64,000 nucleotides of DNA from Cristatella mucedo (lineage: Eukaryota > Bryozoa > Phylactolaemata > Cristatellidae). A program made the translations under genes and the position numbers. The notes below the pieces were generated by a model, which saw nothing but the letters and a program-made list of their open reading frames with translations, ran no database searches and was not told the DNA's origin. The DNA lies in NCBI GenBank assembly GCA_009760855.2, contig WPIO01000067.1, positions 619,501-683,500 of the forward strand, in the 5' to 3' direction. This document shows, in pieces, positions 1-27,000 of the stretch (the first letter of the stretch is position 1; each line of letters starts with the position of its first letter).

Positions 1-3000
1 AACAGGCTAAGAGGCTGATGTTTCAAAAGTTCTACGGTCCTGCTAGAAGTCAGGCAAGGAAGAAGCACAATGAGTATTCAGCTAAATGCATATGCCAGAT
101 ACATTCAAGTGAAATAATAATAGCACATTTAACTGGGCGTATTGTTTACATGTCCTTCTAGTGACCATCGGATGCAGCTATAGTAACATGTCTGGCCGAC
201 TATGTCTGGCTATCCATTTTCCAGGCTGGATAATCTTCAACGATTTTAGTATTTTGCATTAGAAAACTGCAGCAAGCCGAACGTATAACGACCAGTAAAA
301 ACTTTGCGGCAGCCCGCCACATGCTAGTAGGACTCACGTTAGTACCGCCTTGCCAGGTGAAGCATCACTTTGAAGTAGCTGCCCAAGCTTTCTCCACTCC
401 AGGTGAAGGGTAGAGTCATTGACTGTGCGACCAGTGATGGCCAACTTTGTTGCGGGCAGGAATGTGTTGGCATCAACATTACTAGGTCGTTTCCCTATAG
501 CTACAACTTCGATCTCCAACAGCGACCAGTTGATATGGCTTGGCTCACCTGCAGGCATGTTTAATAGGTTGGCAATGCAACATGAGTATTGACCGAATAA
601 AAATGTATAAAAAACGTGACAGCAAATTAAAGTCATTGCCTAAGATTAATAACGAACCCACTACTAAACATGGAAATGGTTCATTGCAGCAGAAGGCTAT
701 AGTAAAACTCTTTGCGTGCCTGTACGTAGAATTTGAACTATTTATAGAAAAGTTACTAGCTTAGCAGAAGGCAGAAGTTGAGTAGTGACATACTCCAAAC
801 ACATAAATATGCCTTTTCTTTTTTCACCAAGCTAAGAAGTACTGCAACTATTTAATCAAGAACTTGAGAAATATGCGGTTAATAAAGCAAACAGAATTTA
901 ACCAAGTTCGTGTACTTATCGACCGTACTCTGTAGCGTCGAGAGCAGAGGAAGACACAGCTTGCAGTGAAAACTCGCCAGGGCTTTTGTGCATGCGAGTC
1001 ATGCCTTTGACGAGACCCCTAATCTTTGTGCTTTGCAAGTGCACACGTTGCGCTACTTTTGCTGCTGATAAATAAAGGCCGTGATTGGCAGTTGATGCAT
1101 CCACGGTGCAGAGTACGCCTTCACATCAGCACTTCACTGCACTTGCCTGGCGTGTCCACGCCGACGGTTGCTCCTTTGGACGACTGACCATAACGGTTCT
1201 GGGCAGTACACACGTATGTTCCGGCATCACTGGCCTGGGCTGATGGAATCCTGCAAAATATTGCATGCATTAGAGCCTAATGAAATTTTATCCAGAACCT
1301 CGAGATACATCACAAGCCTAACTGATTTCTCGAAAAGCATATTCAATGCCCGATATAGTGACTCCTAATTAGGAACTCCAAACGGTAGATTACTGAAAAC
1401 GGTCGTTGGGCACGTGCATGTTATAGCTTGCTAGTGCATCTCTTTGAAGACCACAAGATTTCTACTGAAAGTACCTTCGAGTAGTTCGAGTGAAATCTTC
1501 GTGAAAGCAGCTGAACAATTACTAGTAGACCAAATTTACTATTAGGCTTTGTACAACAAAGGGTATTCATTTAACTTTAGCAACGATTTCTTGGCTAAAT
1601 ATATTTTAGAAAAACAATGACCAAGTCCTGGGACTACAAGGGTCTAATCGACGTTGATATACTTCCAAACCTCTCCATCATCAAGCTTCAAGGCTTTCAT
1701 AAAATGGCAGTTTAAATTAAAACATTAGGAAATAACTAGTGCCTGAGAGGTAAATTAGTGCTTACAGAAGGTCAAAGTTAAATTCTTTTTGAATATGGCA
1801 TCAGGAATCGCTCTTGTAATGCAGAAGAATGATAAACAACTGATTGAAGAAAGCAAGCTTAACTGCATAGACGCCGTGGTTGTTAGTTCAATCTATCCAG
1901 TTATCAGTTGATGGTCATCTTATAAATATAAGTGAGTCGGGATGCTTTTATTTAGTCCTAGATTTTAATTGCAATCTATTAGACTTCGTTTCTTTACCAA
2001 TTGGTGCTACATCAAGTTAAAGTTCAACTCTTGACATCTTATAATCTGAGGCACTCAATGTTGTCAAAAAAGATGCCCACTAACTTCTCTTCTACGATTA
2101 TTTCCTACTAACAGTTCAGTCTTTACCCATTTACGTTCTTTCTAACTGATTTACTTTAACGTCACTTAGGAGTTGCATTATAAGGTGATCGAACTTTTTT
2201 AAGGTTTTTTCAGCAATGCATGCACTATGCCACTGCTCACGTCAACGATTTTATTGTCAATGCTTTTTCTGTGCCTGCATATATACTGTTCCGATCGCTC
2301 GTTACTTACCTAAGCGTGTTGCCGTCGATGACGACTGAGGCGGGTAATGAAGCATTCTGATAGCCAATTCGGCTCCAATTATAGATGGGATCTGGACCGC
2401 CATTCGCTTGGCAAACAAGGACGAGCTCTCCACCGACTGGGGTGCCTCCACTACCACCTCCACCATTAGGGGAAGTCACGTTGACAGAGTTCGGTGCATA
2501 GCTTCCTAAAAGAGGAGCACAATCATCACTCACACCTCTACTCTCTTCTGTTAGTGCCGCCGCATCAACTTTGATTGCATCAGGAAGACAGAACAGACTT
2601 AGGCCGTAAAATCATGCTGGCAGTGTAGCTCTATAATACTTGTTGTGCTGAGGCCTGTCGTTCCGTGCCTGCTGGTTAGTTTACCCTGGTCGCCTGAACG
2701 TGCTGCTGGTGGGCACTGCTAGGAGCCGGCCGTTTCCGGGAACGACCACCAACAGCCACCTTTGGAGTACAGAGGCTAAAAAAAAACTGCCATCTCCCTA
2801 GCCACGGCCGACCGATGCTGCAAGCAATAACGGCTCGCCACAACCAACCTGGTTCAGGTTCTGCTGATCAGTGCTGTCCCGGCCACCCAATATTCTTGCC
2901 ACATGACAGGACTCGCCTTCCCACCAGTCGGGGAACCGGCTTGAGAGCCAGGCCTGGTCATTGACAAGGGCACCGACGTCGTCCTAGTCTACCGCAAGGT

Positions 3001-6000
3001 GTCGTTTGATGGCAGCAAGAAAACCTCGGTGGTGGCTACCCAGATGAAAAAGCTGATAAGTACGAAGCCATAGCCTGCTCTTTTCTCACTAACCGGTACA
3101 GGTCAGCATTGGTGAGGCCCTTCTTGGTCGTTGCTCTAACTGGCTGGTGGATGGATATCAAAGCCTGCTTATGTAGACCTCGGCATTTCGCAGGGGAAAT
3201 GGGCGTCACTGTGGCAGTTGTGCCTCTCGGACTCAATTTCTGCGTGTGAAGCCTTTTGGTCCCCGTACGTGAATTGGATGATGGGGGTCCCACCCTCGAC
3301 CCTGTAGGGTTATCCAACAAAGGTCCAATACATTGTGGAAATATTAAACCCCAACGTGATAATCTCCAGAGGCTTGTGTTTAAGTGACCGAATCTCAGAG
3401 ATTGCAACGGTGTCGGTGGAAAGCAGAAAAAGGACGGGTCACTGCAATATACCTTTGGTGTCTACAGTAACGTTGATGGCACCTGACAGTGAGCCATGCT
3501 GGTTGCCTGCCGTACACACGTAGGTTCCTGCATCAGCAGCCTGGACTGATGGTAATCTAAAAGAGAAATCACGCAGGTGCATGGTGAGCTGCAGTTTGTA
3601 TGTGCTAGCTTGTCAGACTAACGTACCCTCTCCTCATGCTATTTCAGCTTATTACGAAATGGATATGAAAAGTGTCGAAAGCAATGCCTAAAGTCTACTT
3701 TTGAGTTATATTTAATGTTTACCTTCCACCCTCAGGCCGGTTCGGTAAAGTCGGATCGTTAAGACAGCTCTAGTTGAAGAAAGCTCGCAAGCGATAGTCG
3801 TCCTTGTTAAAAGGATTGAAATTCCTGCCTGGCTTTTTGTCATACAACTCTAGTCACAATGTTTCTGTATAGACCATCAAAACGTCGGAGGAAAGCTACC
3901 TCATCCTACGTCAGTGGACAAGATTTTTGCAAGCAATTGTTTGGGCTTCATTTTAACAGAACGATATTTATCGAAAAGAAATTCTAGTACGAGGTAGTTA
4001 ACAATTCAAAGAACCTAACCCTAATTGGGACTAAGCGATAACTTGATCGGAACTGTTGAATAATACTTTAAGTATTCGTGTAGATGGTAATTTAAAAAGT
4101 GAAGCCACGAATTTTGTCAGAGTCGTTGTCACTAAGCATTAATCAGTTCACAAGACAAATACGTGAACCTAATGCCCAATCTCTTACAGGTCCACTTGAT
4201 AAAATGCTTATTAACAATTGGGTAACCCGATAGGCGTAGTCGCGACATATTCTCATCTGACACTGTTTTTATAATTATTCTAATACAACGATGCTGCTCC
4301 TACCGTTATCCTTTTTCTTTATCCTAAACATTCATAGCACCTTTTCGACCAACTGCCTGACTGGCGGCAAACTTTTTTATCAGCACTATACGCAAAGAAA
4401 TACATGCCTCCAAATTTGAAGAGTATCTTTTATTATTTCTCCGTACCTATAAACTCGTTACCATAAGATGTCTTTATCGTTATTTTTGCGATTACTTACG
4501 TTAGCTGGTTGCCATTAATGATAGCTGTGGTCGGCAAAGATAACTGTTGACTGTCAACTATTCTTGTCCAGTTGTAGCTTGGAACTGGGATGCCATCCGC
4601 CTGGCAAACGAGTCTCACTGAGCCATTGACGTAAAGGCCACCACTTCCCAGATCGTCGCTGACAGCCTTGACGTTCACAGAAGATGGTGAATAGTGGCCT
4701 ACAGCAAGTACAGCGTACGGTAGGCACGTTAGTGATTCTACGACTTATGGGAAACCAAGAGTATGCAACGGTTGAGCAGAGAGTCAGTACATGCTGTGGA
4801 AACTGACCCGTTCTGGCTTTCATAGCAATTTCGCAAACGTCAAAACTGAGGGCTTTCCCAGTCCCGGCAAGCCCAGCATAATGCTACTGATTCCTCCCGG
4901 AAAATGTACATGGTTATTGTTAGGAAATCCTAGGCCGAGCATGCGAATCGGCGATTACAAGCAGAAGGGCTTAGCACTCGCTAGTTACTATCGGCAAACA
5001 CAAGTTAATTGTTAGATCTTACCGAGAACGAGAATATCAATCTGGCGTGAAGCAATGGGGCCAAATCCTTCAACAACTACTTGGCATGTGTAGACACCGG
5101 AGTCGGCTGAGGTGATGTCTTCAAGGCTGCAAGAGACGGCCAACCTCACATTAACGACAAATCAGCACGAGCCTTTCTGCAAAATGGTGCAATTCCTGAA
5201 AAAAGATTTGAAGTGAAAATATGACCGTCGACAGGTAGGGAGCTTAGTACCGTACAGTTGTCGGGTTTGTAACTATAACTTCAAAGCTTAAAAATTAGCT
5301 TTGTGTCATGGGTGAATGAGTTCATGAAAGGGCGACGATCTGAGGCTTCTTACCACACCTTGAACATGCAAGCCTATGCTCAAGTTCGTTAGAACAGGCT
5401 AAGAGGCTGATGTTTCAAAAGTTCTACGGTCCTGCTAGAAGTCAGGCAAGGAAGAAGCACAATGAGTATTCAGCTAAATGCATATGCCAGATACATTCAA
5501 GTGAAATAATAATAGCACATTTAACTGGGCGTATTGTTTACATGTCCTTCTAGTGACCATCGGATGCAGCTATAGTAACATGTCTGGCCGACTATGTCTG
5601 GCTATCCATTTTCCAGGCTGGATAATCTTCAACGATTTTAGTATTTTGCATTAGAAAACTGCAGCAAGCCGAACGTATAACGACCAGTAAAAACTTTGCG
5701 GCAGCCCGCCACATGCTAGTAGGACTCACGTTAGTACCGCCTTGCCAGGTGAAGCATCACTTTGAAGTAGCTGCCCAAGCTTTCTCCACTCCAGGTGAAG
5801 GGTAGAGTCATTGACTGTGCGACCAGTGATGGCCAACTTTGTTGCGGGCAGGAATGTGTTGGCATCAACATTACTAGGTCGTTTCCCTATAGCTACAACT
5901 TCGATCTCCAACAGCGACCAGTTGATATGGCTTGGCTCACCTGCAGGCATGTTTAATAGGTTGGCAATGCAACATGAGTATTGACCGAATAAAAATGTAT

Positions 6001-9000
6001 AAAAAACGTGACAGCAAATTAAAGTCATTGCCTAAGATTAATAACGAACCCACTACTAAACATGGAAATGGTTCATTGCAGCAGAAGGCTATAGTAAAAC
6101 TCTTTGCGTGCCTGTACGTAGAATTTGAACTATTTATAGAAAAGTTACTAGCTTAGCAGAAGGCAGAAGTTGAGTAGTGACATACTCCAAACACATAAAT
6201 ATGCCTTTTCTTTTTCACCAAGCTAAGAAGTACTGCAACTATTTAATCAAGAACTTGAGAAATATGCGGTTAATAAAGCAAACAGAATTTAACCAAGTTC
6301 GTGTACTTATCGACCGTACTCTGTAGCGTCGAGAGCAGAGGAAGACACAGCTTGCAGTGAAAACTCGCCAGGGCTTTTGTGCATGCGAGTCATGCCTTTG
6401 ACGAGACCCCTAATCTTTGTGCTTTGCAAGTGCACACGTTTGCGCTACTTTTGCTGCTGATAAATAAAGGCCGTGATTGGCAGTTGATGCATCCACGGTG
6501 CAGAGTACGCCTTCACATCAGCACTTCACTGCACTTGCCTGGCGTGTCCACGCCGACGGTTGCTCCTTTGGACGACTGACCATAACGGTTCTGGGCAGTA
6601 CACACGTATGTTCCGGCATCACTGGCCTGGGCTGATGGAATCCTGCAAAATATTGCATGCATTAGAGCCTAATGAAATTTTATCCAGAACCTCGAGATAC
6701 ATCACAAGCCTAACTGATTTCTCGAAAAGCATATTCAATGCCCGATATAGTGACTCCTAATTAGGAACTCCAAACGGTAGATTACTGAAAACGGTCGTTG
6801 GGCACGTGCATGTTATAGCTTGCTAGTGCATCTCTTTGAAGACCACAAGATTTCTACTGAAAGTACCTTCGAGTAGTTCGAGTGAAATCTTCGTGAAAGC
6901 AGCTGAACAATTACTAGTAGACCAAATTTACTATTAGGCTTTGTACAACAAAGGGTATTCATTTAACTTTAGCAACGATTTCTTGGCTAAATATATTTTA
7001 GAAAAACAATGACCAAGTCCTGGGACTACAAGGGTCTAATCGACGTTGATATACTTCCAAACCTCTCCATCATCAAGCTTCAAGGCTTTCATAAAATGGC
7101 AGTTTAAATTAAAACATTAGGAAATAACTAGTGCCTGAGAGGTAAATTAGTGCTTACAGAAGGTCAAAGTTAAATTCTTTTTGAATATGGCATCAGGAAT
7201 CGCTCTTGTAATGCAGAAGAATGATAAACAACTGATTGAAGAAAGCAAGCTTAACTGCATAGACGCCGTGGTTGTTAGTTCAATCTATCCAGTTATCAGT
7301 TGATGGTCATCTTATAAATAAGTGAGTCGGGATGCTTTTATTTAGTCCTAGATTTTAATTGCAATCTATTAGACTTCGTTTCTTTACCAATTGGTGCTAC
7401 ATCAAGTTAAAGTTCAACTCTTGACATCTTATAATCTGAGGCACTCAATGTTGTCAAAAAAGATGCCCACTAACTTCTCTTCTACGATTATTTCCTACTA
7501 ACAGTTCAGTCTTTACCCATTTACGTTCTTTCTAACTGATTTACTTTAACGTCACTTAGGAGTTGCATTATAAGGTGATCGAACTTTTTTAAGGTTTTTT
7601 CAGCAATGCATGCACTATGCCACTGCTCACGTCAACGATTTTATTGTCAATGCTTTTTCTGTGCCTGCATATATACTGTTCCGATCGCTCGTTACTTACC
7701 TAAGCGTGTTGCCGTCGATGACGACTGAGGCGGGTAATGAAGCATTCTGATAGCCAATTCGGCTCCAATTATAGATGGGATCTGGACCGCCATTCGCTTG
7801 GCAAACAAGGACGAGCTCTCCACCGACTGGGGTGCCTCCACTACCACCTCCACCATTAGGGGAAGTCACGTTGACAGAGTTCGGTGCATAGCTTCCTAAA
7901 AGAGGAGCACAATCATCACTCACACCTCTACTCTCTTCTGTTAGTGCCGCCGCATCAACTTTGATTGCATCAGGAAGACAGAACAGACTTAGGCCGTAAA
8001 ATCATGCTGGCAGTGTAGCTCTATAATACTTGTTGTGCTGAGGCCTGTCGTTCCGTGCCTGCTGGTTAGTTTACCCTGGTCGCCTGAACGTGCTGCTGGT
8101 GGGCACTGCTAGGAGCCGGCCGTTTCCGGGAACGACCACCAACAGCCACCTTTGGAGTACAGAGGCTAAAAAAAACTGCCATCTCCCTAGCCACGGCCGA
8201 CCGATGCTGCAAGCAATAACGGCTCGCCACAACCAACCTGGTTCAGGTTCTGCTGATCAGTGCTGTCCCGGCCACCCAATATTCTTGCCACATGACAGGA
8301 CTCGCCTTCCCACCAGTCGGGGAACCGGCTTGAGAGCCAGGCCTGGTCATTGACAAGGGCACCGACGTCGTCCTAGTCTACCGCAAGGTGTCGTTTGATG
8401 GCAGCAAGAAAACCTCGGTGGTGGCTACCCAGATGAAAAAGCTGATAAGTACGAAGCCATAGCCTGCTCTTTTCTCACTAACCGGTACAGGTCAGCATTG
8501 GTGAGGCCCTTCTTGGTCGTTGCTCTAACTGGCTGGTGGATGGATATCAAAGCCTGCTTATGTAGACCTCGGCATTTCGCAGGGGAAATGGGCGTCACTG
8601 TGGCAGTTGTGCCTCTCGGACTCAATTTCTGCGTGTGAAGCCTTTTGGTCCCCGTACGTGAATTGGATGATGGGGGTCCCACCCTCGACCCTGTAGGGTT
8701 ATCCAACAAAGGTCCAATACATTGTGGAAATATTAAACCCCAACGTGATAATCTCCAGAGGCTTGTGTTTAAGTGACCGAATCTCAGAGATTGCAACGGT
8801 GTCGGTGGAAAGCAGAAAAAGGACGGGTCACTGCAATATACCTTTGGTGTCTACAGTAACGTTGATGGCACCTGACAGTGAGCCATGCTGGTTGCCTGCC
8901 GTACACACGTAGGTTCCTGCATCAGCAGCCTGGACTGATGGTAATCTAAAAGAGAAATCACGCAGGTGCATGGTGAGCTGCAGTTTGTATGTGCTAGCTT

Positions 9001-12000
9001 GTCAGACTAACGTACCCTCTCCTCATGCTATTTCAGCTTATTACGAAATGGATATGAAAAGTGTCGAAAGCAATGCCTAAAGTCTACTTTTGAGTTATAT
9101 TTAATGTTTACCTTCCACCCTCAGGCCGGTTCGGTAAAGTCGGATCGTTAAGACAGCTCTAGTTGAAGAAAGCTCGCAAGCGATAGTCGTCCTTGTTAAA
9201 AGGATTGAAATTCCTGCCTGGCTTTTTGTCATACAACTCTAGTCACAATGTTTCTGTATAGACCATCAAAACGTCGGAGGGAAAGCTACCTCATCCTACG
9301 TCAGTGGACAAGATTTTTGCAAGCAATTGTTTGGGCTTCATTTTAACAGAACGATATTTATCGAAAAGAAATTCTAGTACGAGGTAGTTAACAATTCAAA
9401 GAACCTAACCCTAATTGGGACTAAGCGATAACTTGATCGGAACTGTTGAATAATACTTTAAGTATTCGTGTAGATGGTAATTTAAAAAGTGAAGCCACGA
9501 ATTTTGTCAGAGTCGTTGTCACTAAGCATTAATCAGTTCACAAGACAAATACGTGAACCTAATGCCCAATCTCTTACAGGTCCACTTGATAAAATGCTTA
9601 TTAACAATTGGGTAACCCGATAGGCGTAGTCGCGACATATTCTCATCTGACACTGTTTTTATAATTATTCTAATACAACGATGCTGCTCCTACCGTTATC
9701 CTTTTTCTTTATCCTAAACATTCATAGCACCTTTTCGACCAACTGCCTGACTGGCGGCAAACTTTTTTATCAGCACTATACGCAAAGAAATACATGCCTC
9801 CAAATTTGAAGAGTATCTTTTATTATTTCTCCGTACCTATAAACTCGTTACCATAAGATGTCTTTATCGTTATTTTTGCGATTACTTACGTTAGCTGGTT
9901 GCCATTAATGATAGCTGTGGTCGGCAAAGATAACTGTTGACTGTCAACTATTCTTGTCCAGTTGTAGCTTGGAACTGGGATGCCATCCGCCTGGCAAACG
10001 AGTCTCACTGAGCCATTGACGTAAAGGCCACCACTTCCCAGATCGTCGCTGACAGCCTTGACGTTCACAGAAGATGGTGAATAGTGGCCTACAGCAAGTA
10101 CAGCGTACGGTAGGCACGTTAGTGATTCTACGACTTATGGGAAACCAAGAGTATGCAACGGTTGAGCAGAGAGTCAGTACATGCTGTGGAAACTGACCCG
10201 TTCTGGCTTTCATAGCAATTTCGCAAACGTCAAAACTGAGGGCTTTCCCAGTCCCGGCAAGCCCAGCATAATGCTACTGATTCCTCCCGGAAAATGTACA
10301 TGGTTATTGTTAGGAAATCCTAGGCCGAGCATGCGAATCGGCGATTACAAGCAGAAGGGCTTAGCACTCGCTAGTTACTATCGGCAAACACAAGTTAATT
10401 GTTAGATCTTACCGAGAACGAGAATATCAATCTGGCGTGAAGCAATGGGGCCAAATCCTTCAACAACTACTTGGCATGTGTAGACACCGGAGTCGGCTGA
10501 GGTGATGTCTTCAAGGCTGCAAGAGACGGCCAACCTCACATTAACGACAAATCAGCACGAGCCTTTCTGCAAAATGGTGCAATTCCTGAAAAAGATTTGA
10601 AGTGAAAATATGACCGTCGACAGGTAGGGAGCTTAGTACCGTACAGTTGTCGGGTTTGTAACTATAACTTCAAAGCTTAAAAATTAGCTTTGTGTCATGG
10701 GTGAATGAGTTCATGAAAGGGCGACGATCTGAGGCTTCTTACCACACCTTGAACATGCAAGCCTATGCTCAAGTTCGTTAGAACAGGCTAAGAGGCTGAT
10801 GTTTCAAAAGTTCTACGGTCCTGCTAGAAGTCAGGCAAGGAAGAAGCACAATGAGTATTCAGCTAAATGCATATGCCAGATACATTCAAGTGAAATAATA
10901 ATAGCACATTTAACTGGGCGTATTGTTTACATGTCCTTCTAGTGACCATCGGATGCAGCTATAGTAACATGTCTGGCCGACTATGTCTGGCTATCCATTT
11001 TCCAGGCTGGATAATCTTCAACGATTTTAGTATTTTGCATTAGAAAACTGCAGCAAGCCGAACGTATAACGACCAGTAAAAACTTTGCGGCAGCCCGCCA
11101 CATGCTAGTAGGACTCACGTTAGTACCGCCTTGCCAGGTGAAGCATCACTTTGAAGTAGCTGCCCAAGCTTTCTCCACTCCAGGTGAAGGGTAGAGTCAT
11201 TGACTGTGCGACCAGTGATGGCCAACTTTGTTGCGGGCAGGAATGTGTTGGCATCAACATTACTAGGTCGTTTCCCTATAGCTACAACTTCGATCTCCAA
11301 CAGCGACCAGTTGATATGGCTTGGCTCACCTGCAGGCATGTTTAATAGGTTGGCAATGCAACATGAGTATTGACCGAAAAAAAATGTATAAAAAACGTGA
11401 CAGCAAATTAAAGTCATTGCCTAAGATTAATAACGAACCCACTACTAAACATGGAAATGGTTCATTGCAGCAGAAGGCTATAGTAAACTCTTTGCGTGCC
11501 TGTACGTAGAATTTGAACTATTTATAGAAAAGTTACTAGCTTAGCAGAAGGCAGAAGTTGAGTTGTGACATACTCCAAACACATGAATATGCCTTTTCTT
11601 TTTCACCGAGCTAAGAAGTACCGCAACTATTTAATCAAGAACTTGAGAAATATGCGGTTAATAAAGCAAACAGAATTTAACCAAGTTCGTGTACTTATCG
11701 ACCGTACTCTGTAGCGTCGAGAGCAGAGGAAGACACAGCTTGCAGTGAAAACTCGCCAGGACATTTGTGCATGCGAGTCATTCCTAGGACGACAACCTTA
11801 ATCTTTGTGCTTTGCAAGTGCCAAACGTTCAGCAACTTTCGGTGCTGCTAAATGTAGGCCGTGATTGGCGGTTGATGCATCTACAGTGGAGAGTAAGCCT
11901 TCACGTCAGCCACTGCACTTGCCTGGTGTGTCCACGACGACGGTTGCACCTCTGGACGACTGACCGTAACGGTTCTGGGCAGTACACATGTATGTTCCTG

Positions 12001-15000
12001 CATCACTGGCCTGGGCTGATGGAATCCTGCAAAATATTGCATGCAATAAAGCCTAATGAAATTTTACCCTGAAACTCGGGCTACATCAAAAGTCTCACTG
12101 ATGTCTCGGCGAGCACGGGCAATACTTGATATATTGACTTTTAATTTGCAATTCCCAACGGTAGATTACTGAAAATGGTCGTTGGGAACGTCCAGGTTAT
12201 AGCCTGTTATGGCATCTCTTTGAAGACAGCAAAAGATTTGCACCAAAAGTACCTTATAGTGGAAATTTCGTGAAAGCAGCTGAAACATTAATGGTAGAGG
12301 AAATTTACTATCAAGCTGTATACAACAATGGTTATTCATTTGACTTTAGCAACGATGTCTTGGCTAAATATATTTCAGAAAAGTGATAACCTAGTCCTGG
12401 GACTACAAGGGTCTAATCGATGTTGATAGATTTCCAAATCTCTCCATCATCGACCGTCAAGGCTTTTATAAAATAACAGTTGAGAGTCGTACATTTAAAT
12501 TTATCTCGTGCCTGAGAATTGAAATTAGTGCTTACAGAAGTTAAAAGTTATATGCTTATTGAGCATGGCACGAGGAATCGCTATTGGAATGCAGAAGAAT
12601 GTTATACAACTGAGCGAAGAACGAAAGCTTATCTGAAAAGAAACGGTATTTACAATTCCAATCTCTCTAGTTATCAGTAGATAGTCATATTAAAAATAAG
12701 TGAGTCGGGATGCTTTTATTTAGTCCTAGATATTACCTGCAATTTATTAGACTGCGTTTTTTAGCGATCAGTGCTTCATCAAACTACAGTTTCAGTCATG
12801 ACATCTTATAATCTGAGGCACTGAATTTCGTCAAAAAAGATGCCCTATAACTTCTCTCCTACGATTACGTCATATAACAGTCCACTCTTTACCCATTTAC
12901 GACTTTCTAACAGATTCACTATAACGTCACTTAGGAGTTGCATTATACGGTGATCGTACTTTTTCAAGGTTCTTTCAGCAATGCATACACTATGCCACTG
13001 CACACGTCAAAGATTTTATTCTCAATGCTACTTCCGTGCCTGCATATATACTGTTCCAATCTCTCGATACTTACCTAAGCGTGTTGCCGTTGATGATGAC
13101 TGAGGCTGGCAATGAAACATTCTGACTGCCAATGACTCCGCTCCATCTATAGATGGGATCTGGACCGCCATTCGCTTGGCAAACAAGGACGAGCTCTCCA
13201 CCGACTGGGGTGCCTCCACTACCACCTCCACCATTGGGGGAAGTGACGTTGACAGAGTTCGGTGCATAGCTTCCTAAAAGAGGAGCAAAATCATCACTCA
13301 CACGTCTGCTTTCTACTACTTTCATCTACTCTTCTGTTGGTGCAGCCGCATCAACTTTGATTGCATCAGGTTGACAAAACAGACTGGTGTCGTAAAAAAA
13401 TTCTGGCAAAGTAGCTCTATAATTCTAGCCAGGCTGTCATTCTGAAGCTTGTCGTTACGGCGTGGTGCTTGGTGGACCATGGAGGTCATTAGGTGAGTTG
13501 CCCGAGGTGCTGGTAGTAGCCGGCCATATTGCAGAACGGCCACCAACTTCCACCTTAAGAGTACTGAGGTTGAGACTTTTTGCCAAGTCCTTAGCCACGG
13601 ACGAGAGATGCTGCAGGCAATAATGGCTGGGCACAGCCAAGGCATTCAGGTTTGGCTAATCGACGTTCGGCCAATAACAATTCTTGCTTCTCGGTAGGTC
13701 TAGTCTCCTCGCCTGGGGGTGGGGCCGGACTAGTATGACAGCTGGATCTAGTCATCGACCAAGGAACCATGGCTATTATAATCGAGCTAACTGTGTCGTT
13801 CGGAGGCAGCAAGGAGGCCATCATGGCGGCCTCCGATAAAAAGTAGGATTAGTACGATGCCATAGTCCGGCCTTTCTTGACTACTGGCTACCGGTCGGCA
13901 GCTGCTAGGCCATTTTTGATCCTAGCTCTGGGGATCCGATCACCGGCTGACGTCCACCAAGCTTACATTGGCATTTCACTACAGTAGTTTCCGACATTTC
14001 GGCTGCTGACCATCTAACATGATTTCCATGTCGGAAACCTTCATCAGTGTACATGAACCAGGCATCAGGAGGGTAGGACCCAGAGCAACTGTAGGGCAGG
14101 GTTTCTCCATCTTAGATACAATAATTTGTTAAAATATCAACATATAAGGTAACACATACTAGAGGCCTCAACTTGTTTGATGGAATCTCAAATGTCAAAA
14201 TAGTGGTAAGGCAGTGCAGAGAATAAAGGCTCTTCTTAACACAATACCTTTAGTGTCAACAGTAATCTTATTGGTGCCAGACGATGAGCCATGCTGGTTG
14301 GTAGCAGTACACACGTATGTTCCACTATCCTCAGCCTGGACTGATGGTAGTCTAAAAACGAGATAGAACTTGTTAGCTCTTAGTTGGAATTTTTATTTGC
14401 AAGCGTTTTAGTTTAACGTACCAGCTCCTCACACTAAAGCAGCCGATTTGACAGTGTATAGGAGGAGTGTCAATAGCCATATGCTAACTCCAGCTTGAAG
14501 TATTTTGGAATTTTACCTAATGCTTGCCCATCTGTCCTAAAATAGGATTAGAAAGACAATTCTGATTAAAGAGTTGTCGGAAACGGTCGTTGCAGTGGTA
14601 GCTGAAATAAAATTCTTAGTTGGCTTTCGGTCGGCAAAATCACTTTAAATTGTTGCCGTCTACTATATGATATTGGAGTGGAGACGCCACAACCTGAACT
14701 AGTGGAAAACATTCTTACAAAAAACCTTGCAGGTAACATTAAAAAAAATGATGGTTAACAAAGACTAGTGCAAGTACAGATTGGCCCAACTTTTCAAATA
14801 ATGCAATCTTGATAAGACATCAAGAGATCGAATAAAACTATGCGACAGTATCCTTAGTACAAGTGAGTAAGTTTCGTAGGTATGTATTTTATAATGACAC
14901 AAAAAACATCTTCCAAGTCGTTGTCACTAAGCAATTATTAGTCCGTATGAAAAGCCACTGCAAGAATTGCACAATCTCTCACAGGTCCACGGGATTAATT

Positions 15001-18000
15001 TCCAGATTAATAACATGGAAGACAAATTGGGCATGGTTCGAACATTTATTTATGTGAAGCCTTATTCTTGAATAAAATGCCAACGTAACTATCTCGTTAT
15101 TACCGTTATTCACTTTATTTACCCAAACGTTATTAGAACATATTAGTGTATCTAACTGCCTGGCTTCCAGTAGTTTTATCAGCACTTTACAGGGGTAAAT
15201 ATCCGTCTCCAAGTTGGTGACAAGCCCTTATTTATTTCTCCTAAAGTCTAACTGGTTACGGCAAGCTGCCTTTGTGTTCTCAAAACCTTACGTTAGCTGG
15301 TTGCCGTTGACGATAGCCGTTGTTGGCAATGGGATAGGCTGACCGTCACCTATTCTGGTAAAGGTGTAGCTCGGCACTGGGCTGCCATCCGCTTCACAAA
15401 TCAGTTGGACTGAGCCATTGACGTACAGGCCTTCACTTCCTAAATCTTTAGTAACGGCAGTGATGCCGACAGAAGATGGTGAGTATTCGTCTACAACAAG
15501 TAAAGCAGAAGGAGCGTACATTCGGAAACCTGCGGCTCTCAGGCGTCTCAGATTATGCTCATGTCTTAGACAGTCAGCCTATGATGTACAACTTGACCTG
15601 TTTGGGCTGTGATAAAAAGATTTCAAACGTCACAAATGAAGGCATCCGCCTCCCAGCGTTGCACAGAATAATGCATTAGCTGCCTGCCTTAAAATATACT
15701 GGTGATTGGTAGGTTTACGCAGGCAGTGTCTTCGAAAGGACTGGTAAAAGCAGAGATAATTTGCAATAACTTAGTAGCGACGGGAACGACTCGATCTTAC
15801 CAATGACGATAATTTTGATCTGGTCTGAAGCAATGGGGCCGGCTCCTTCAACAACTGCTCGGCATGTATAAACACCAGAGTAAGCTGAGTTGATGTCTTC
15901 GAATCTGCAATAAATTGTCAGGCTCACACCATTGGCAAGCTTACAATCACCTAACCTGGAAAATGGCGAAATGTCAGATAGTATAGTATCCGGAAAACTG
16001 ACTGTCGCTGGTTATGCAGTTTAGCTTTATATTACGTCTGATTTGTAAAAAATTACTACAAAGCTTTAAAATAACTAAGTGCTACAGGTCAAGATCCTTT
16101 TCCTTGATCCCTCCCAGCCTTCGAGCACCTCAAATTCTCTAAACTCACTAGCTGCATGCATTGATGGCATCCGCACATGGATGGCAGCAAATTTTCTAAA
16201 ACTTATGATGATAAAACTAACTTACTAGTTATGGGCTAACCCAGTGTGATCCAGAGATTGGACAGGCTGACTCTCAAAATTGGCTCTGGCAGCATATCTC
16301 CAGTCGAATCAGCTCGAAATCTAGGTGCCATATTCCAAAGCGACCTCTCGTTTGACGACCATATCAGCTTCACAGTCAAATCCGCCTGTTTTCAGCTTCA
16401 TAACATTGCTAAAATTCGGGCTTGTTTAGATAAAGATACCATATCAAAGTTAGTCCATGCATTCGTGACATCCCGTCTCGACTTCTGCGACTCACTGCTT
16501 ACTAGCTTACCAGCATGTGCGATCAGGCGATTGCAGCTGGTGCAAAACTCGGCAGCTAGACTTGTCTGCCGTGAGCGTCGCAGTTTCCACATTACTCCAC
16601 TTCTTGCCGACCTGCAGTGGCTACCAGTCAAGCAACGGATTGAATTTAAGGTTTTGTCGCTCACTATTAGGTCCCTTCATTCTATGGCTGCAGCCTATCT
16701 TTCAGATATACAACCCCAACAGGCCAATCATCGTACCATCCGCTTCTCGGATTTCAACAGTTTGGAAATACCTCGTACAGACCTTAAATCCTTGGAGACC
16801 ATGCATTTAGTTCATATGCTCCCAAAGCCAGGAACTTCCTCCCGAACTGCGTCAGAACATCCCCTAACCTGACCACATTTAAAAGGAATCTAAAAAAACG
16901 CCTATTTAGGACAGCATTTAGAGGGTCCCTGTGATTCGTCCTTGATGTGCTTATGGGTGCTGACACTGTGCATGCTGCCACTAACCACATTTGCATGCTG
17001 ACCCTGTGCATGTCACCCCTAACCATATTATTCATTTCGTGTGTTTTTCAAGCATGATTTTACTTACCATTCAATTGCATTTCACTTTGCAGCAAATGTA
17101 AAGCGCCTAGAGAGAGAGAGAGAGAGATTAAGTTCCCCGAGGACGCTTTATCAAGTGAATTATTGTTATTAAGATTTTAATCGTGACCATAAAAATATTT
17201 CAGATTATTCTCAAGTGCGTTAGAGCAAGCCAAGATAAAACACCAGCAACGTCCTCCCATGGTACTGTAAGTCTCCTAATGTGGAAGGAGCATGTTTATT
17301 CAGTAATAGTAATAATGATGCAATTGATAAAACGCCCTCAGAGAACTCAATATCTATATAGGCGCTTTACATTTGCTGCGAAGGGAAAGCAATTGAATGC
17401 TGCATAATATTATGCTTGATAAACAATGTAAATAATATGTTTAGAGGTGTCATGCATAGGATCAGCATGCAAATGTGGTTAGTGGCAGCATGCACAATGT
17501 CAGCAGGCATAAGCACATGAAGGTCGAATCACAGGGACTCACTAAATGCTCTCCTAAGTAGGTGTTCTTTGAAGTTCCTTTTAAATTTGGTAGAGTCAGG
17601 GGAATGCTCTGAAGGAATTCCGGAGGAAGTTCCAGGCCTTGGGGGCATACTAAATAAATGCACGGTCTCCAAAAGATTTGAGGTTTGTATGAGGTATTGG
17701 TAAACTGTTAGATTCCAAAAAGTGGGTGGTACGATGCTTGGCCTTGCGGGGCAGTAGATATGAGAGATAGGCTGGAGCCAAAGAATGAAGGATCCTAAAA
17801 GTCTGCGAAGCAACCTTGACATCGATCAGTTGCTTGACTGGTAGCAAGTGCAAGTCGGCGAGAAGTGGCGTGATGTGGCAACTGTGAAGCTCACGACTGG
17901 TAAACCTAGCTGCATAGTTTTTGCACAAGCTGTTATCGCCAGATTTCACATGCCGGTACGCCAGCTAGAAGTGAGTTACAGAAGTCGAGATAGGATATCA

Positions 18001-21000
18001 CAAATGAATGGACCAACTTAGGCGTGGTATCCTAATCTAAACAAGCCCAAATTTGAGCAAAGTTATGTAGCTCAAAGTTGACAGACGTGACTGTGGAGCT
18101 GATATGGTCGTCTAACGAGAGGTTAATTTGGAACCTGACACCTAGATTTCGGGCCTATTCAACAGAAGATATGCTGACATAGCCAATTTTAGCATCTGCC
18201 ATCCCAATTTCTGAGTCACACTGGGTTTGTCCACAACTAGCAATTTAGTTTTATCTTCGTTTAGTGTAAGAAAATTTGCTGCCATCCATGTGCAGATGAC
18301 ATCAACACATACAGCAAGTGAATTGAGAGAATTCAAGGTGCTCGAAGGCTGTGAGGGATCAACGCATACGTACAACAGTGTGTGATCCACATAGAAGTGA
18401 AACCCTAGATTGTGCATGGCAATCACATCAGCAAGAGGGAGAGTATACATCGTGGAAAGGACCGGAACTAATATATTTCAGAGGTACCTCGGATGATCTT
18501 TGTCAATTCAAGTCAACCATCTGGAGTCTCCCGCTGAGATTGTACCTGAACCATTGCAGATCAGTGCCATTGATGCCAAGGCCAGATGGAAGGCGCTCTA
18601 GAAGAACTTTGTAATCGATAGTATCAAAAGCTGCCGAAAGGTCGAGTAAAACAAGCATAGACACTCTACCCATGTCTGCATTACTAAGTAGGTCGTCGTA
18701 CATCCTAAGCAATGCCGACTCTGTGGAGTGATTGGTTCTGAAGCCAGACTGGAACTTTCTGGAATGGTTTGAAGTTTCAGTATATGAGTGCAGCTGGACG
18801 GCCACAAAGCATTGCAGTGTCTTTGATAGGAATTATGGAAGGGAGACTGGGCGGTAGTTGCTCAAGTTCTCTTGGTGTAGTGTCGTGCTCTCGAGAAGTG
18901 GCCTGACTACCGTTTTTTTTAAAGATGCTGTGACATGACCTGATGCTAATGACATATTAATGAGGTTAGTTATGCATTGCTGTAGCAGATCAATGCAACG
19001 TAAGAGCAGGACAATGGGCTTGGTGTCCAGAGGACTCGTTGTCTTTTTTAATTGGAATACGAACTTCAGGACGAGATCACTAGGGACCTGCTTAAATGCA
19101 GACATTGAGGTGCAGCCAGGAATAATAATAATAATAATATTGCACTTGATAAAGCGCCCTCAGAGAACTTAATCTCTTTCTAGGCGCTTTACATTTGCTG
19201 CAAAGTGATACGCAATAGAATAGTAAGTAAAATCATGCTTGAAAAGCAAACAAAATGAATAACATGGTTAGGGGTTACATGCACTGGGTCAGCATGCAAA
19301 TGTGGTTAGTGGCAGCATGAACAGTGTCAGCACGCATAAGCACATCGAGGACGAATCACAAGGACCCACTAAATGCTGTCCTAAATAGGTATGTTTTTAA
19401 GTTTCTTTTAAATGTGGTCAGGTCAGGGGATGTTCTGATGCAGGTTCGGAGGGAGTTCCAGGCTGTGGGAGCATACGAGCTAAATGCACGGTCTCCAAAG
19501 GATTTAAGGTTTGTACGAGGTATTTCTAGACTGTTGGATTCCGAAAAGCGAGTGGTACGATGCTTTGCCTGATGGGGTAGTATCTCTGAAAGATAGGCTG
19601 GAGCCATAGAATGAAGAGACCTAAAAGTGAGCGACAAAACCTTGAAGTCAATCCGTTGCTTGACTGGTAACCAGTGCAGGTCGGCGAGAAGTGGAGTAAT
19701 GTGGCAACTGCGGCGCTCACGACAGACAAGCCTAGCTGCAGAGTTTTGCACCAGCTGCAATCGCCTGATCGCACATGCTGGTAGGCCAGTAAGCAGTGAG
19801 TTGCAGAAGTCGAGACGAGATATCACGAATGCATGGACCAACTTGGACGTGGTATCCTCATCTAAACAAGCCCTAATTTTAGCAATGTTATGAAGCTGAA
19901 AATAGGCTGATTTGACTGTGGAGCTGATATGGTCGTCTAACGAGAGGTCGCTTTGGAATATGACACCTAGATTTCGAGCTGATGCAACTGAAGATATGCT
20001 GGCAGAGCCAATTTTGAAAGTCGGCCTTTCCAATATCTGAATAACACTAGGTTTTCCCACTTGGGAACCGAGGAACAGCATTCTAGTGAGGAGGTCGTCA
20101 TCGCAGGGAAAGAATCCCTGATCTTGTCTATCTTCTGCACAAAGAAGCGGGAGAATCGATCGGCTAGATCACCACAAATATGATCGGAGAAGGAGCTAAT
20201 CTGGGAGCGGTTGAGGAAATGGTCTATTGACGAGATCAGCATTTTTCGATTGTGCATCTGTGATTAGACAATGTTTTTAAAGAACCTAGACTTAGGCTTT
20301 GCTAGGATCGATTGGTAAGACCTACAGTAGTCTTCATATGCCGTTCGATGGACAGTCAGTCCTGATCTTTTTTATTCCTTTTTAAGCTTGTTCTTGGTTG
20401 ACCTGGCTAGTTAAACGTCTGTGGTAAACCATAGGTCGTCTGGGCGATGGTTGACAGTGCACTTAGTCAGAAGTGCAAACTTGTCGAGCGTATCAGCTAG
20501 TGTCGTGTTGTAGCTGTCTATCAGTGGTGACTTATCGGACCGAGGACTGAGCAGCAGAGGGAAGCAGACATTTTTGCACGGACAGCAACGATGTCAAGGG
20601 TCTTGAGGTTTCGCGATATGCAGGTCATTTTAGATGTGGAGGCAGGCACACACTTTAGATTGATTGATATCTGTATGCGGTCAGATAAGCAGGATTGGAT
20701 AATAATAGGGGATGAAAAACTAAAGTTTATGAGAAAATTACGTCGTTTGTGGCCATTGATGTGAGTAGGGCCATGCACACGAGCCACAAGATACAATGAG
20801 TAAGTCAATGCACGAAATTCAGTGCAGAAGGTATCAGTGAAGTTACCAAATGAACGTTGAAATCACCCATACCGAGGAGGGATTGATTTCTCGCACACAG
20901 AATCGAAATGAGATCAGTGAAATCTGAGATAAACGAGGATTTGGTACCTTGTAATGTAGTGTAATGTATCTCCGTCAGTAACTCCACAAAGTCAAAAAGA

Positions 21001-24000
21001 CCATGTGGGTGTTATGCAGGGGAGTTTTGTATAGCGCACTCACAGCCTAAGTGGCTTTCGGTAAGCATTCGGTAGCCAACAAACTTCGTCTCACGCAACA
21101 AAGAGAAAGTGGGAAGCATAGCAGAGTTAGGAGAGCAGTTGAGATAGTGAGTAGCATAGAAGTAGCAGTTCAGGACCGCTGAAAAAGATGTGCCATAGTC
21201 GGCAGTTAGAGAGTAGATGTCGTGGCAGACGATAGACTACTGCCACTATCGGTAGCTTGTTTTCGGGTGAGACCAAGACAATTGATTCAAAAATCTGCTT
21301 CGAGGGTACTGCAAATGGCTTGAAGTTGAATTTTGAGCACACGATAAAGGCATCTCAACCTCTAGTTTTGATCGATCTAGGGGTGTGAAGGAATGAGAAA
21401 TCAGTTAGGATTGGGTCTTCAGTTGTCGGGCAGTTTATCGATTTTATCCAAGTTTCAGTTAGGACGAGCAGGTTGATACCATTTTCAAAAATAGGTCGCA
21501 TATTACCAGAGGTTTAGTGCAATTGAACGAGAATTTCAAAGACAACCGTTAAGTCTGGCCGATGGGATTGTAACAGGCCTGGTGACCATTAAGTTAGAGA
21601 GATTCACAGTGAAGCATGTGGGAGAGCGTGCCGAGCGGTTCGAGACAATGCTAGGAATATCAAACGAGTGGGAGCACGTTCAAATGTTTGGGTAAAAATG
21701 TATGCCTGTGGCACGTGAGTAAAACCGTTGGAACGTATCGAACAGGAAATAGCTTTTATCTGTCCTACTAGTGTTCCCTGGATTTTAGTATACAACTGTC
21801 GAAGCTTCTAGTACTCACTACATACTTTTGAAGCCTGAGAGAAGATTTCTGTTACTTTGCTCCCGGACCTTCTTGATTTGTTTCCAAACAAATGTTATTT
21901 CACCAGCGATAGATGAGTAGCAGCAGGCCACTTGTCAGACTCACTTTAGTACAGCCCTGCCAGGCGAAACTTCGCTCAGAAATAGCTGCCCTTCCTTTCT
22001 CCACTCCAGCTGAAGCGTTGAGTCACCAACGCTGCGACAAGTGATGTCCAAGCTAGTCTTAGATAGGAATGTATTGGCATCACCATTGTCTGGTCGCTTC
22101 CCACTGGCTTCAATATCGATCCTCAATGGTGACCAGTTGATGGTTTTGCTGTCATCTGTAGGCGTACTAAAGATGTTAGCACTAGTAATACGATTATTGA
22201 CCTAACGAAAATGTGTGTAAAAAATGTACTAGATACATAAGTAACGCATGGCAAAAGATTAATAAAAAATGCTGTTCTACAACTAGAGATGCTGACTGAC
22301 ACATCTGAATGGCCTGCCTCCATGTATTCCTCTGTTCGCTTTTAGGAACGATATTAGCTCACGTATAAAATGTTTTAGTCTTACCATACCATATAAGTTG
22401 CCGGCGACAAACTGTAAGCCCACATGGACATGCCCTTCTTTCCTCGTTATTCCAAGCAAAGCTGATGATTGTTATGAGCTAACCAGCAAGGAAGATTATT
22501 TCTAGTCTCAGATAGGGATAGCATGGGAAGGCCTGCTTTGGAAGCTGTCTTCATAACGAGGCTTTCAAAATTTAGGACACTTCGACAAACGCAGTCGAGT
22601 ATTCATCACAGTATGGCACATGCACCACTTATTAGAAGACCAAAGCATTAATGCAAGCTTGGGGTGTCCTATGAGTAATAGTTCCGTTTTATCACAGTTT
22701 ATTTTACGAAATTTACCTAAATTCAGGATCAAATTTCTGCAAAGCAAGAATTCTGTTTAATAATTGCTGGAGCAGACTCCTACGGTTTAAATGACAAAAA
22801 AGATAAGTATCTTCAGCTTAAGTGAGATAGCCTATTTCATGTACCGGGATCATTTTGTCGAGAATTTGAGTATAAATGGAAAACAGCAGAGCACTGAGGA
22901 TTGACTCTTGTGGGACTATGCAGGTGCCTGATTTGGTGGATGAGATTTGACTACCACATGACAGGGATTGAAGAAGACTGGACAAGTACTACAACAAGAC
23001 CAGTGTTACGTCTGTCAGACCTATCGTAGTTCTCAATGGTTCAAGTAGCCTATTGTTATCAACCCTGTTAATGGCAGCTTATCAGTACTTCAGAGCTAGT
23101 AACATTACCAACATAGTTGCTTCGTTGGATAACGATGCTAACTCTGTAGTCAAAGACTCAGCGAACTTCTGCCGCATGAACCACAATTTTAACTATTTTA
23201 AAAATCTCAATATTTTAATTGTATGCTGCCTGTTTCTGAACGACAATTTTTAGTCAAATCCTTGACAAAAAAGGTAGAGTGGAAACTTGACAATAACTTG
23301 AAAAAATTTGTATTTAATATGGGCTTCATAAATATTTGTAGAGATATGGTCGATTTTTGAAGGTCTTGTGAAACTGTTTACTTAGTGATGCATTAAAAAT
23401 CTCGATTGAGGCAAGGCTAAGTTTACTTGCCGATTGCCACTAAAAAAATGCATAGTCTTCAGAAAGGAGTTTTTTATGAGAACCTATTAGGGTCACTCCA
23501 TGAAATTCAGAAACGTCCAAAATCCCTTAAGGAAGATCGATACTTGCGTTTTAACGATCGCTATATTTAAATGGAGCTTTATAGAGGCACACACGTGCAC
23601 ATTTTTTTTAAAGGCGGGCGAAAACCTGCGGACAAGCCGTCAATACGGAGGAGCAAGAGCATATCACAATCGGTGAGCAAGTTTTTTTCTTTCTTATAAA
23701 TCTGTTTCTTGTCTGACTACCATGAGATATGGCTTTCCTAGGATTCCATGTGTAGACTCGAAGGAAGTCTTTGTAATAGCTTTAGTGTTGACCATACAAA
23801 CACTTCTAAAAGCAGCATTTAAGCCTTCACACTGTATGTCGTCTTGTAAATTATTTTTTTATAACCATGAAAGAAATCTTCACTGCCGTGTTAGACGGAC
23901 GGCATGCATAATACCTAATCTTAAAGGGTATTACTACATGTCATGGTCACTTTCACATTTGGGATATAGCGGCTTTCGGTTGAGTATGAGTGCAGATCAA

Positions 24001-27000
24001 GACAATTTGCCTCAAGCACGGATTAAAATTATGTCTCAGTCATAGCGTTTTAAGCGATGCCTCGGGAAAATGTCAACTTTACCGGTATATACAACGGAGC
24101 AGGAAAATCAAATAAGATCGAACAATGATCCGAGAGGGTTAGAGTGCACAAAACTAGGTCATTGAGGTAGACATCCTCAGTGATAACGAAGTGTATGATA
24201 TGGCCACACAGGTTAGTGGTAATATTAACCAAAGGTGCTGTAGACAGCCAAGAAATGAGCCGATCTGACCGTTTCGACAACAAAAAACTTGTCCATTGAG
24301 GTTTGCTGCACGGTTTTCACAGCTTGCCATGACGTCAGATCCAATCCTAATTAAGAGCAAAGGTTCTTCAGCTAGCCCCCCCATGTCCGTTCCCCCTAAG
24401 AATATGAAGTTTCTTCCAGCATGTCTTTCACTCGATTACTTTATTTTATTTTCGTTTGACTCCCCAAACGCACCAGTGCATTGCAGCTGGCGATAAATAA
24501 TTTAGCTTACAGACATAACAAAATAATTACGCATTTACAATTTCATTCATTATTTCATACGTATTCCCTCGACCAAGTTGAAAAATCTAACTAGAGCCTG
24601 TACTTGGAGAATGTATCCACTAGCTGCCGTAACTCGGGCACACAAAGCTTGTAGTAACATCTTGCCAGTGCAACTGAGGATGCCTAGACGAGACCATAAT
24701 CTTAGAACTTTTGCAAGTGCGGCCGATTTAATACTTTCACTGTCGATGATTAACGACAAATCGCGGGGAATTCATAAACCTGTTGGGGTAGGTAAAGTTT
24801 CAGTATAAGCCAATTTACTCGCCTTCCGGTACCCCGACGAAACATACGGCAGTGGACGACGAACCATACCGGTTCTGGGCAGTACACAAGTACGTTCCTG
24901 CATCATCAGCATGGAGTGACGGAATCCTGCAACAGACGGTGCGCATGCAGAGATAAGATACAGTTTTTACTACGAACTCCAAGCTACACAATGGCCCTCA
25001 CTGAATTTGGGTGCAGCTGGGTCGACGGCTGTTAGTGCATTGGATCCCCAAATGCAAAATAACTGGTATGGACATATGTGAGCAAGTGATTAAGTACAAT
25101 TCTCTAACAAGAATTAACGGTTTGCTCCACATACTACACCTAGTTAGCCGAAGCGTACGTTTCATGCAAGAAGGTTAACTAATAAAGATGCGACAAAGAT
25201 TCTAGTTGGGCCTATAGTGTTGGCGGTTCTTAAAACATGACGACTGGTGAGCCCTAATGAGATAGGAAACAAAAGAACCAATTTCTGGGACCCTGGAGAT
25301 AAAAAAAACATGCAAATAACGGATAATCCTTGCATTATAGAGCTTCCGTGCTTAATCAAGCCTTCAGTAAGACTAGTGCAATGACGGTAATAATCCCTGC
25401 TTACCTCAGCGTGTTTCCGTCGACGATAGTTGATTCTGATAGTGGAACCTTCTCGATGGACTTGACTTTGCTCCATATGAAGCTAGGAGCTGGACCGCCA
25501 TTGGCGTTGCAAATGAGGTTGAGCTCAGCTCCGATGTCCTGGCTTCCACTAACACCTCCACCATCCGGGGAAGTCACGTTTACTGAGTTCGGTGCAAAGC
25601 TGCCTACAAGTGCATTGATATCGTCACTCGGCCCTTGAAATTCCATTCTGTTTGGCTCGAGAAAGACGGAACTGACTGATTGAGGTAACCGAATGCTGAG
25701 GCATCTGTTTTCAGCTATTACTGTGCTGATAGCCAAGCGGATCTGTCCTTGTGTGATCAGATCTCAATAACAAATGAAACGCAGGCAATGCATTGCAGCA
25801 GAAACAGGTTCGTCACTCTACAATACCCTTGGCGTATATGGTAATGGTGAAGGTACCAGACAATGAGCCATACTGGTTCTTAGCAGTACAGAATTATGTA
25901 CATACTACACAGTAGGCAATGTACCTCGACACTTTGCAATTGCAGGAGCTGGCTGGCAACAATACGATACCTTTGGAGTCCACATCAATAGTAACTCTAG
26001 CCGTGGATGAGCCGTACTTGTTGGTTGCTGTGCACGAGTAGGTTCCAGCATCTTCAGCCACGACTGATGGAAGCCTAAAACCGGAATCACTGAGGTGCAA
26101 GCAAGCTACAGTTTGAGCCTGCTTTGCACCTTTGCGCCTGGTTTTAAGGTTAAAGCACGTATCCTTACATAACACATATCCTTAGTAGTGCACCCTATTC
26201 AAAGGTGGTTTTGACAAATTTCGATAGCCAACCCAAAACATTAGCTATTATCAATTGTCGATGTTATTCTCCTAGTCTCAAAATGAGGCTAGGATTATCA
26301 ATCTGATAAGAAACTACCGAAATTACTGCTTTCGCAACCAGCCATTGGGTCAAAGAGGTATCTAAATTAGAAACTGTTATCCAAGGTGGCTTGAAAAAAG
26401 AAACTGCTTCTTAGCTATATCTTAGTTAGACCAGTGTAATTCTCCGTTGGTTGGTCTGACAAAAAATTTTACCAGGCCACTGCAGCTCGCTATGGATATG
26501 GCAGCACGGCTAGTTGACCTCTTTTCACAGAAGGGCCGTCTCTTGCAAAGCCAAGCCTATTCTGGCTCTGTAACTGACTGCTCTGTGACACATTCGGGTA
26601 TTTGCCAGCTATTTTTGCTGTAACTGGTCATGAGATGACCTCTGATGTGCTAATAAAATCACGACTTCCTTAGACAAAGGTTCGATGTAGTTATTATTAA
26701 ACACCTATGAAAAATATTTGTAAGAACCCCCTGGATCTTGCTTTCGCCTTATCACCAGCTTGGTATCAACCTAATACAAGTAAGTTTGTAGCCATGCATA
26801 GCTTCCGTTATGGCAGCAGCTCAATTGTTGTGCTTGTGAAAAGTTAACTGCCAACGGTTAATAAGACCTAATTTTTATTCAAAGGGGCAGCATCTGCTGG
26901 GCCAGCTAATAGCGACTGGAATATAAGCCACTTAATCGGCTCTGCTCAGGTGTAAGATAGCCACTACGATTCCGCCCGTTAAATTCCAGCTTCCTAAACT

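Follow-up and report, generated by a model that had tools for sequence, protein, structure and literature searches.

The stretch analysed here (the window, 64,000 nucleotides) belongs to the 572-Mb assembly of the bryozoan Cristatella mucedo, where it occupies positions 619,501 to 683,500 of contig WPIO01000067.1 (C634 in the coordinates below; positions without this prefix are those of the window). It takes in about 41 of the 78 kb of a minus-strand gene that we call gene 2, namely its 5' half. In this gene, a cassette encoding three different immunoglobulin (Ig) domains is repeated in tandem together with its introns. Twenty-nine Ig exons were placed from 38163 down to 338, with borders chosen among candidate splice sites to satisfy phase; all 29 exons join in phase and the spliced frame contains no stop, in agreement with an earlier note on this DNA that had claimed a single gene growing in frame by three Ig domains at a time. 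Each Ig domain is encoded by two exons, a phase-1 intron preceding the domain and a phase-2 intron splitting it, and three kinds of domain recur in the order a-b-g, one unit comprising six exons and three domains. In a Pfam scan, all five of the a, b and g domains tested exceeded the cut-off of an Ig family (Ig_3, I-set or Ig_2).

In the direction of transcription, gene 2 opens with a signal-peptide-like exon at 41263-41335 (judged by eye rather than by a predictor, with an ATG at 41322 followed by a phase-0 donor, and with a conserved counterpart at 741.6 kb in the upstream paralogue) and a second exon of 61 nt with a phase-1 end (41098-41158). Two Ig domains come next, E1 (first-half exon 37983-38163, second-half exon 34802-34905) and E2 (34367-34553 and 31253-31350); further a-type exons were sought inside the window upstream of E1 and none was found. 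Cassette A consists of exons a1 (30038-30236), a2 (29330-29433), b1 (28903-29101), b2 (25971-26074), g1 (25405-25603) and g2 (24823-24926), and cassette B of a1 (21945-22155), a2 (15801-15904), b1 (15292-15490), b2 (14248-14351), g1 (13075-13273) and g2 (11923-12026). The same six exons make up cassette C (a1 11119-11329, a2 10413-10516, b1 9890-10088, b2 8842-8945, g1 7700-7895, g2 6539-6642) and cassette D (a1 5730-5940, a2 5023-5126, b1 4500-4698, b2 3453-3556, g1 2310-2505, g2 1147-1250), and the a1 exon of cassette E (338-548) is the last in the window, from which the gene runs on leftward to a stop near C634:582.63 kb.

Two peculiarities of these exons deserve mention in their own right. 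The intron before a1 has a GC rather than a GT donor in five of five cases in the window, after the second-half exon of E2 and the g2 exons of cassettes A to D (31247-31252, 24817-24822, 11917-11922, 6533-6538 and 1141-1146), as opposed to none of the 24 other exons, and across genes 1 and 2 the GC donor is found at 14 of 16 g-to-a junctions, the remaining two being one GT and one that could not be assigned. If the GC donor is ignored, a stop follows within eight codons in cassettes A to D, and most other donors likewise lead to early stops. The a domains of the amplified copies (11119-11329, 5730-5940 and 338-548) carry a Gly codon (GGT) at the position of the strand-B Cys of cassettes A and B, which leaves the second Cys unpaired.

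As cut in the earlier note, two recent units lie in the window on the minus strand, U4 (1-5392, C634:619501-624892) and U5 (5393-10781, C634:624893-630281). The claim that they are the same sequence, introns included, proved correct: over a whole-length alignment they show no substitution and six length differences amounting to seven bases, all of them intronic and within short mono- or dinucleotide runs. The third copy, said to extend from 10782 to 16000, does begin at 10782, where the right end of the homogeneous array matches the units without substitution for 597 bases (10782-11378, minus strand), and goes no further. Beyond 11378, at a lag of about 5,390 bp, older paralogy to the unit (11379-13929, minus strand) declines stepwise in identity from 98% to 68%, with 6 substitutions in 384 bp, then 230 in 1626 (14%) and then 171 in 527 (32%), the borders of these segments having been placed by eye except for the last, which is the end of the BLAST match. 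Projected on the second copy, the right-hand edges of the steps are at 5989, 6373, about 8000 and 8526, all in inter-domain introns. Each copy does have six exons with matching phases, as had been proposed; the domains are not complete within the cut, however, since 1-5392 splits one of them and holds the a1 exon of one cassette with the a2 exon of the next.

The array continues past the left edge of the window. Units begin at C634:598145, 603324, 608723, 614112, 619501 and 624893 (U0 to U5), with a partial seventh unit leftward of U0, and the stretch free of old divergence reaches from about C634:594,224 to 630,878 (36.7 kb, or 6.8 units), flanked by diverged sequence at both borders. Any two of the six units differ by 0 to 7 substitutions, with a total of 12 substitution cells over the six, and the growth can accordingly be called very recent, as had been claimed. 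Three substitutions are common to U4 and U5 and absent from U0 to U3 and from the outer copy, and they show that the copies of the array are not all one sequence. In U2 to U5, the 24 exons are mutually consistent. Within the b-g intron of the unit, about 340 bp (2652-2992) correspond to a dispersed repeat, in which 28 of the 41 matches of window positions 1-3000 fall, on other contigs and at 70-75% identity.

Exon scans with hidden Markov models over C634:540-763 kb placed gene 2 beside a second gene of the same kind, gene 1, in tandem and on the same strand. Gene 2 has 34 Ig first-half exons (11 a and 23 others, one split row being merged) in the order E1, E2, ten a-b-g cassettes, a final a and a final domain; about seven of the ten cassettes (C to I, the 36.7-kb stretch) are nearly identical, and the older ones are A and B in the window and J to its left. 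Gene 1 has 17 (5 a, again after merging one split row, and 12 others), in the order E1, E2, four cassettes, a, another domain and a last domain, and none of its cassettes are near-identical. Both genes have the conserved signal-peptide-like exon, the second exon with a phase-1 end, and a stop and AATAAA shortly past the last Ig exon. In trees, the exons of the first cassette, of the last a, of E1 and of the last domain each pair with their counterparts in the other gene on starred branches, and the amplified copies cluster only within gene 2, with many inner forks unresolved (the a1 tree kept 9 of 17 rows, four being too short and four identical ones left out, and the b/g first-half tree kept 25 of 36). 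The simplest reading would be that the gene was duplicated first and that the middles of the two copies then grew separately. The product of gene 2, whose model has a hydrophilic C terminus and a stop after the last Ig domain, is probably secreted.

The cassettes of gene 2 preserve different ages of growth. At the protein level, A matches the other cassettes at 48-59%; identity between B and C is 64% for a, 72% for b and 91% for g, and D does not differ from C. Leaving out D for its identity, the mean identity between domains is 58.8% at a lag of three domains, as against 24-27% at lags 1, 2, 4 and 5, a peak matched at any lag from 1 to 4 by one of 20,000 reorderings. In the 2.2-kb block over which B and C can be aligned, the two g exons have 19 differences over 300 sites, against 382 over 1,827 in the introns (p=6e-11), and dN/dS (replacement over synonymous divergence) between B and C is 0.16/0.43 across all three domains; the cassettes have therefore been coding and under constraint. 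An oddity of cassette A is a partial second b2-like exon in its b-g intron (25816-25893). It matches the b2 exon of B at 83% over 48 bp, is nearer to that exon than to the b2 exon of A, and is perhaps the relic of an older exchange.

Growth by three domains recurs in cassettes A, B and J, in the four cassettes of gene 1, and in two further arrays that lie outside both genes. The second array, about 51 kb past the end of gene 2 (C634:500001-531822), repeats an a-b-g triplet with at least six a1 copies in the stretch covered, spaced by 4,723-4,728 bp with one spacing of 4,474 (a period of about 4.73 kb). Its five aligned units are 97-99% identical, differing by 21-59 substitutions and 1-10 insertion or deletion (indel) events per pair; with four of the six exons mapped, variable sites number 15 of 591 in exons and 81 of 4,148 in introns (p=0.35), and the codon changes are seven synonymous and seven replacement. 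This parity fits weak constraint or homogenisation, and not diversification. The third array (C634:808761-843765) has seven a1 exons spaced by 5,793-5,812 bp (about 5.80 kb) from 808,761 to 843,556, and four of its copies, compared over 3.2 kb, are 99.1-99.8% identical outside one 134-bp gap in copy L036. Each pair of these copies shows 2-14 substitutions and, apart from that gap, 0-3 gaps, substitutions exceeding gaps in five of six pairs and standing at 2 to 2 in the sixth. The second array gives no DNA alignment to the first or the third, and the first and third share only exon-sized matches (73-76%). With three separate amplifications in one family, it is very unlikely that cassette arrays at this locus are an artefact. 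Further Ig exons occur between gene 1 and the third array (C634:766-778 kb), and a search with a single a domain (E <= 0.01) returned at least 68 matches, at least 61 of them on C634 and at least seven on a second contig, C35, these counts being lower bounds from a search that scored only its best candidates (78 of 78).

Our results suggest that gene 2 belongs to a cluster of Ig-only genes in which a-b-g cassettes were amplified by out-of-register crossing-over, ten of them in gene 2 and others independently in the remaining arrays, and we consider this reading probable. The building block is the cassette of three different Ig domains with two exons each, and a crossing-over one cassette out of register would add or remove exactly three domains and leave the frame intact. 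The exchange may fall between domains or within one, and the frame would be kept either way because matching introns of adjacent cassettes share the same phase. Repeated rounds would have led to the ten cassettes of gene 2, about seven of them very recently; elsewhere on the contig, two regions have multiplied other cassettes independently. Repeated exchanges or conversion tracts would account for the strata of divergence. In-frame growth by three domains is real and recurrent, and unequal crossing-over is its likely mechanism; under such a mechanism, cassette number would be expected to vary between individuals. As to what the protein does, our guess is a long extracellular fibre, or a binding protein, that would gain reach or valency with each added cassette, and selection for length is possible. 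The selection for diversity raised in the earlier note finds no support, since the three encoded domains hardly change from one amplified copy to the next.

Several observations weigh against this reading. The exon borders were selected on DNA sequence for their fit to phase, and the gene ends and the proposed secretion likewise come from inspection of the sequence. In the second array, one of six a1 exons is frame-broken (near 508.4 kb), and the third array was sampled as 3.2-kb pieces (g2, a1, a2, b1) from which a three-domain unit would be extrapolated. The left edge of the main array is inside an intron within a g domain, outside the window, and exchanges are thus not limited to introns between domains; moreover, an array already in place could be homogenised by gene conversion. 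U4 and U5 differ in run lengths alone, their existence as two units thus depending on the assembly, and the three substitutions that define them lie within 67 bp and may represent one event. Finally, indels are present in 5 of the 12 exons that make up U0 and U1 and, if real, would interrupt the protein inside the array; U0 lacks a 220-bp piece in which an a1 acceptor and 97 bp of its exon would lie. These indels are probably consensus errors due to weak polishing where reads barely crossed the array, and possibly real damage.

Of the alternatives, the one that survives best is neutral turnover, in which unequal exchange lengthens and shortens the array to no advantage, and the array is retained only because the frame survives. 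We regard it as quite possible, if not the explanation toward which we lean. Exons and introns of the second array are equally variable, as such turnover would have it, and extra copies bring little sequence diversity; it has to be set against the constraint on the older cassettes and against the presence of three arrays of one family on one contig, next to a gene 1 whose four cassettes are diverged.

That the whole array is an assembly artefact was a serious concern as long as the window alone was visible, and the substitutions in the other arrays and the two types of unit have reduced it to a question of copy number. What is left is an expansion in which fewer 5.39-kb units are real and the assembler repeated one of them, which we think rather unlikely. 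Between U4 and U5 there are six run-length indels and no substitution, whereas substitutions outnumber indel events by 401 to 18 in the B/C block, a ratio at which six differences that are all indels would have p ~6e-9. U0 has 14 indel events and U1 has 20 (mostly insertions in U1, 17 of 22 cells), against no more than 2 and 4 private substitutions, a profile like that of poorly polished long-read sequence. However, the units fall into two substitution types, U4 and U5 versus U0 to U3, the array has diverged sequence on both sides, substitutions are, as in real DNA, the main difference between copies in the other two arrays (for the third array, in five of six pairs), and an assembler may equally drop units. 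The exact number of copies (about seven) is nevertheless the estimate of the assembler and is uncertain, because U0 and U1 look poorly polished.

A recognition or host-contact locus, in which unequal crossing-over would make cassette number rather than sequence vary between individuals and length or valency would carry information, seems to us distinctly unlikely; in such a locus the conserved GC donor at g-to-a junctions could add a second layer, with transcripts ending at cassette borders. Clustered paralogous genes of the Ig superfamily, as in an Alr-type complex, are indeed found here, given the concentration of a-domain matches on C634, but no 16-residue hydrophobic run of the kind expected from a single-pass membrane protein occurs in the open reading frames (ORFs) of the window.

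That gene 2 is simply a perlecan or hemicentin of the ordinary kind, with the array as its usual Ig region, is hardly credible; this was our first reading and was dropped once the flanks turned out to be a signal-peptide-like exon and a stop with AATAAA, with only Ig exons between them. Hemicentins carry an N-terminal VWA domain and a C-terminal G2F/EGF region; in the model of gene 2, the N terminus is formed by the signal-peptide-like and 61-nt exons and the C terminus ends after the last Ig domain, VWA and G2F not having been sought by profile. The best-scoring database matches are mostly hemicentins, or in the case of a six-domain piece Ig proteins that are unnamed or labelled as perlecan, and identity across several domains is 24-33%; three protein searches, each length-limited and covering the roughly 8,000 candidates with most shared words (two of them giving the best 120 of 627 and 120 of 140), found no close relative. 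An I-set/C2-type Ig array is shared with perlecan, and the perlecan of Trichoplax has about 36-40 Ig modules (PMC4398486). The gene model has no LDLa, laminin IV, EGF or laminin G modules around the Ig region, and a simple pattern scan of the window ORFs, which did not extend to laminin G, revealed no LDLa, EGF, TSP1 or Kunitz motif.

Among systems already described, the nearest arrangement is kringle IV type 2 (KIV-2) of human LPA, an intragenic 5.5-kb repeat with introns and two exons that is present in 1 to more than 40 copies per allele (PMC4378929). The array shares with it the tandem repetition of introns as well as exons inside one gene, the very low variation between copies and the growth by whole domains, and differs in that the unit has three different Ig domains and six exons instead of one kringle and two exons, and in that related regions are also arrayed. 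The triplicate region of human nebulin comes second, with its eight-exon, 10-kb block normally present in three copies per allele and prone to copy-number change (PMC9109913); it too is a multi-exon block in tandem within one gene, although of a muscle protein with three copies, in contrast to the probably secreted Ig domains and about seven copies found here. What defines such intragenic cassettes, near-identical head-to-tail units with introns and a preserved frame, is found in our array apart from the 5 of 12 exons affected in U0 and U1. In domain IV of perlecan, the number of Ig modules varies by lineage and intronic recombination has been proposed (PMC4398486); long runs of Ig domains in an extracellular protein are common to both cases, while the LDL-receptor, laminin and EGF modules are those of perlecan and none was found here, and the available part of that source contains no three-domain array of similarly recent origin. 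The allorecognition complex of Hydractinia resembles our locus in clustering related invertebrate genes of the Ig superfamily, and our genes are unlike it in looking secreted and in having nearly identical array copies (PMC11067881).

Duplication of several domains at once, often in the middle of the repeat region, is general, and Ig domains are reported to belong to the group that most often duplicates one domain at a time, a pattern with which the growth by threes seen here contrasts (PMC1553488). Apart from that paper, a literature search that left out most subscription papers gave nothing on point concerning a tandem array of Ig cassettes. How repeat proteins grow is usually inferred from repeats that are old and diverged, whereas in gene 2 the stages of growth stand side by side (48-59%, 64-91% and identical) with step-like borders of identity, and the separate arrays elsewhere on the contig serve as replicates. 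The kind of arrangement is known, but to our knowledge a unit of three Ig domains accompanied by several replicate arrays on the same contig had not been met before. It raises the question of whether the length of an Ig protein varies between individuals in steps of three domains, and whether it does so under selection.

Some minor features remain to be recorded. Seven a-domain matches lie on the plus strand of C35 (446262-550173). The a1-a2 intron of cassette B (15905-21944) is 6.0 kb long, compared with 602-603 bp in C and D, and contains repeat copies in both orientations. These repeats look LINE-like; the longest ORF in that intron matched no Pfam family. Ten other ORFs of the window gave no Pfam family above the cut-off, and scans of the window for Rfam families (at the gathering threshold) and for tRNAs returned no matches. 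At 61772-62042 there is a short tandem repeat with a period of 122 bp and 2.2 copies.

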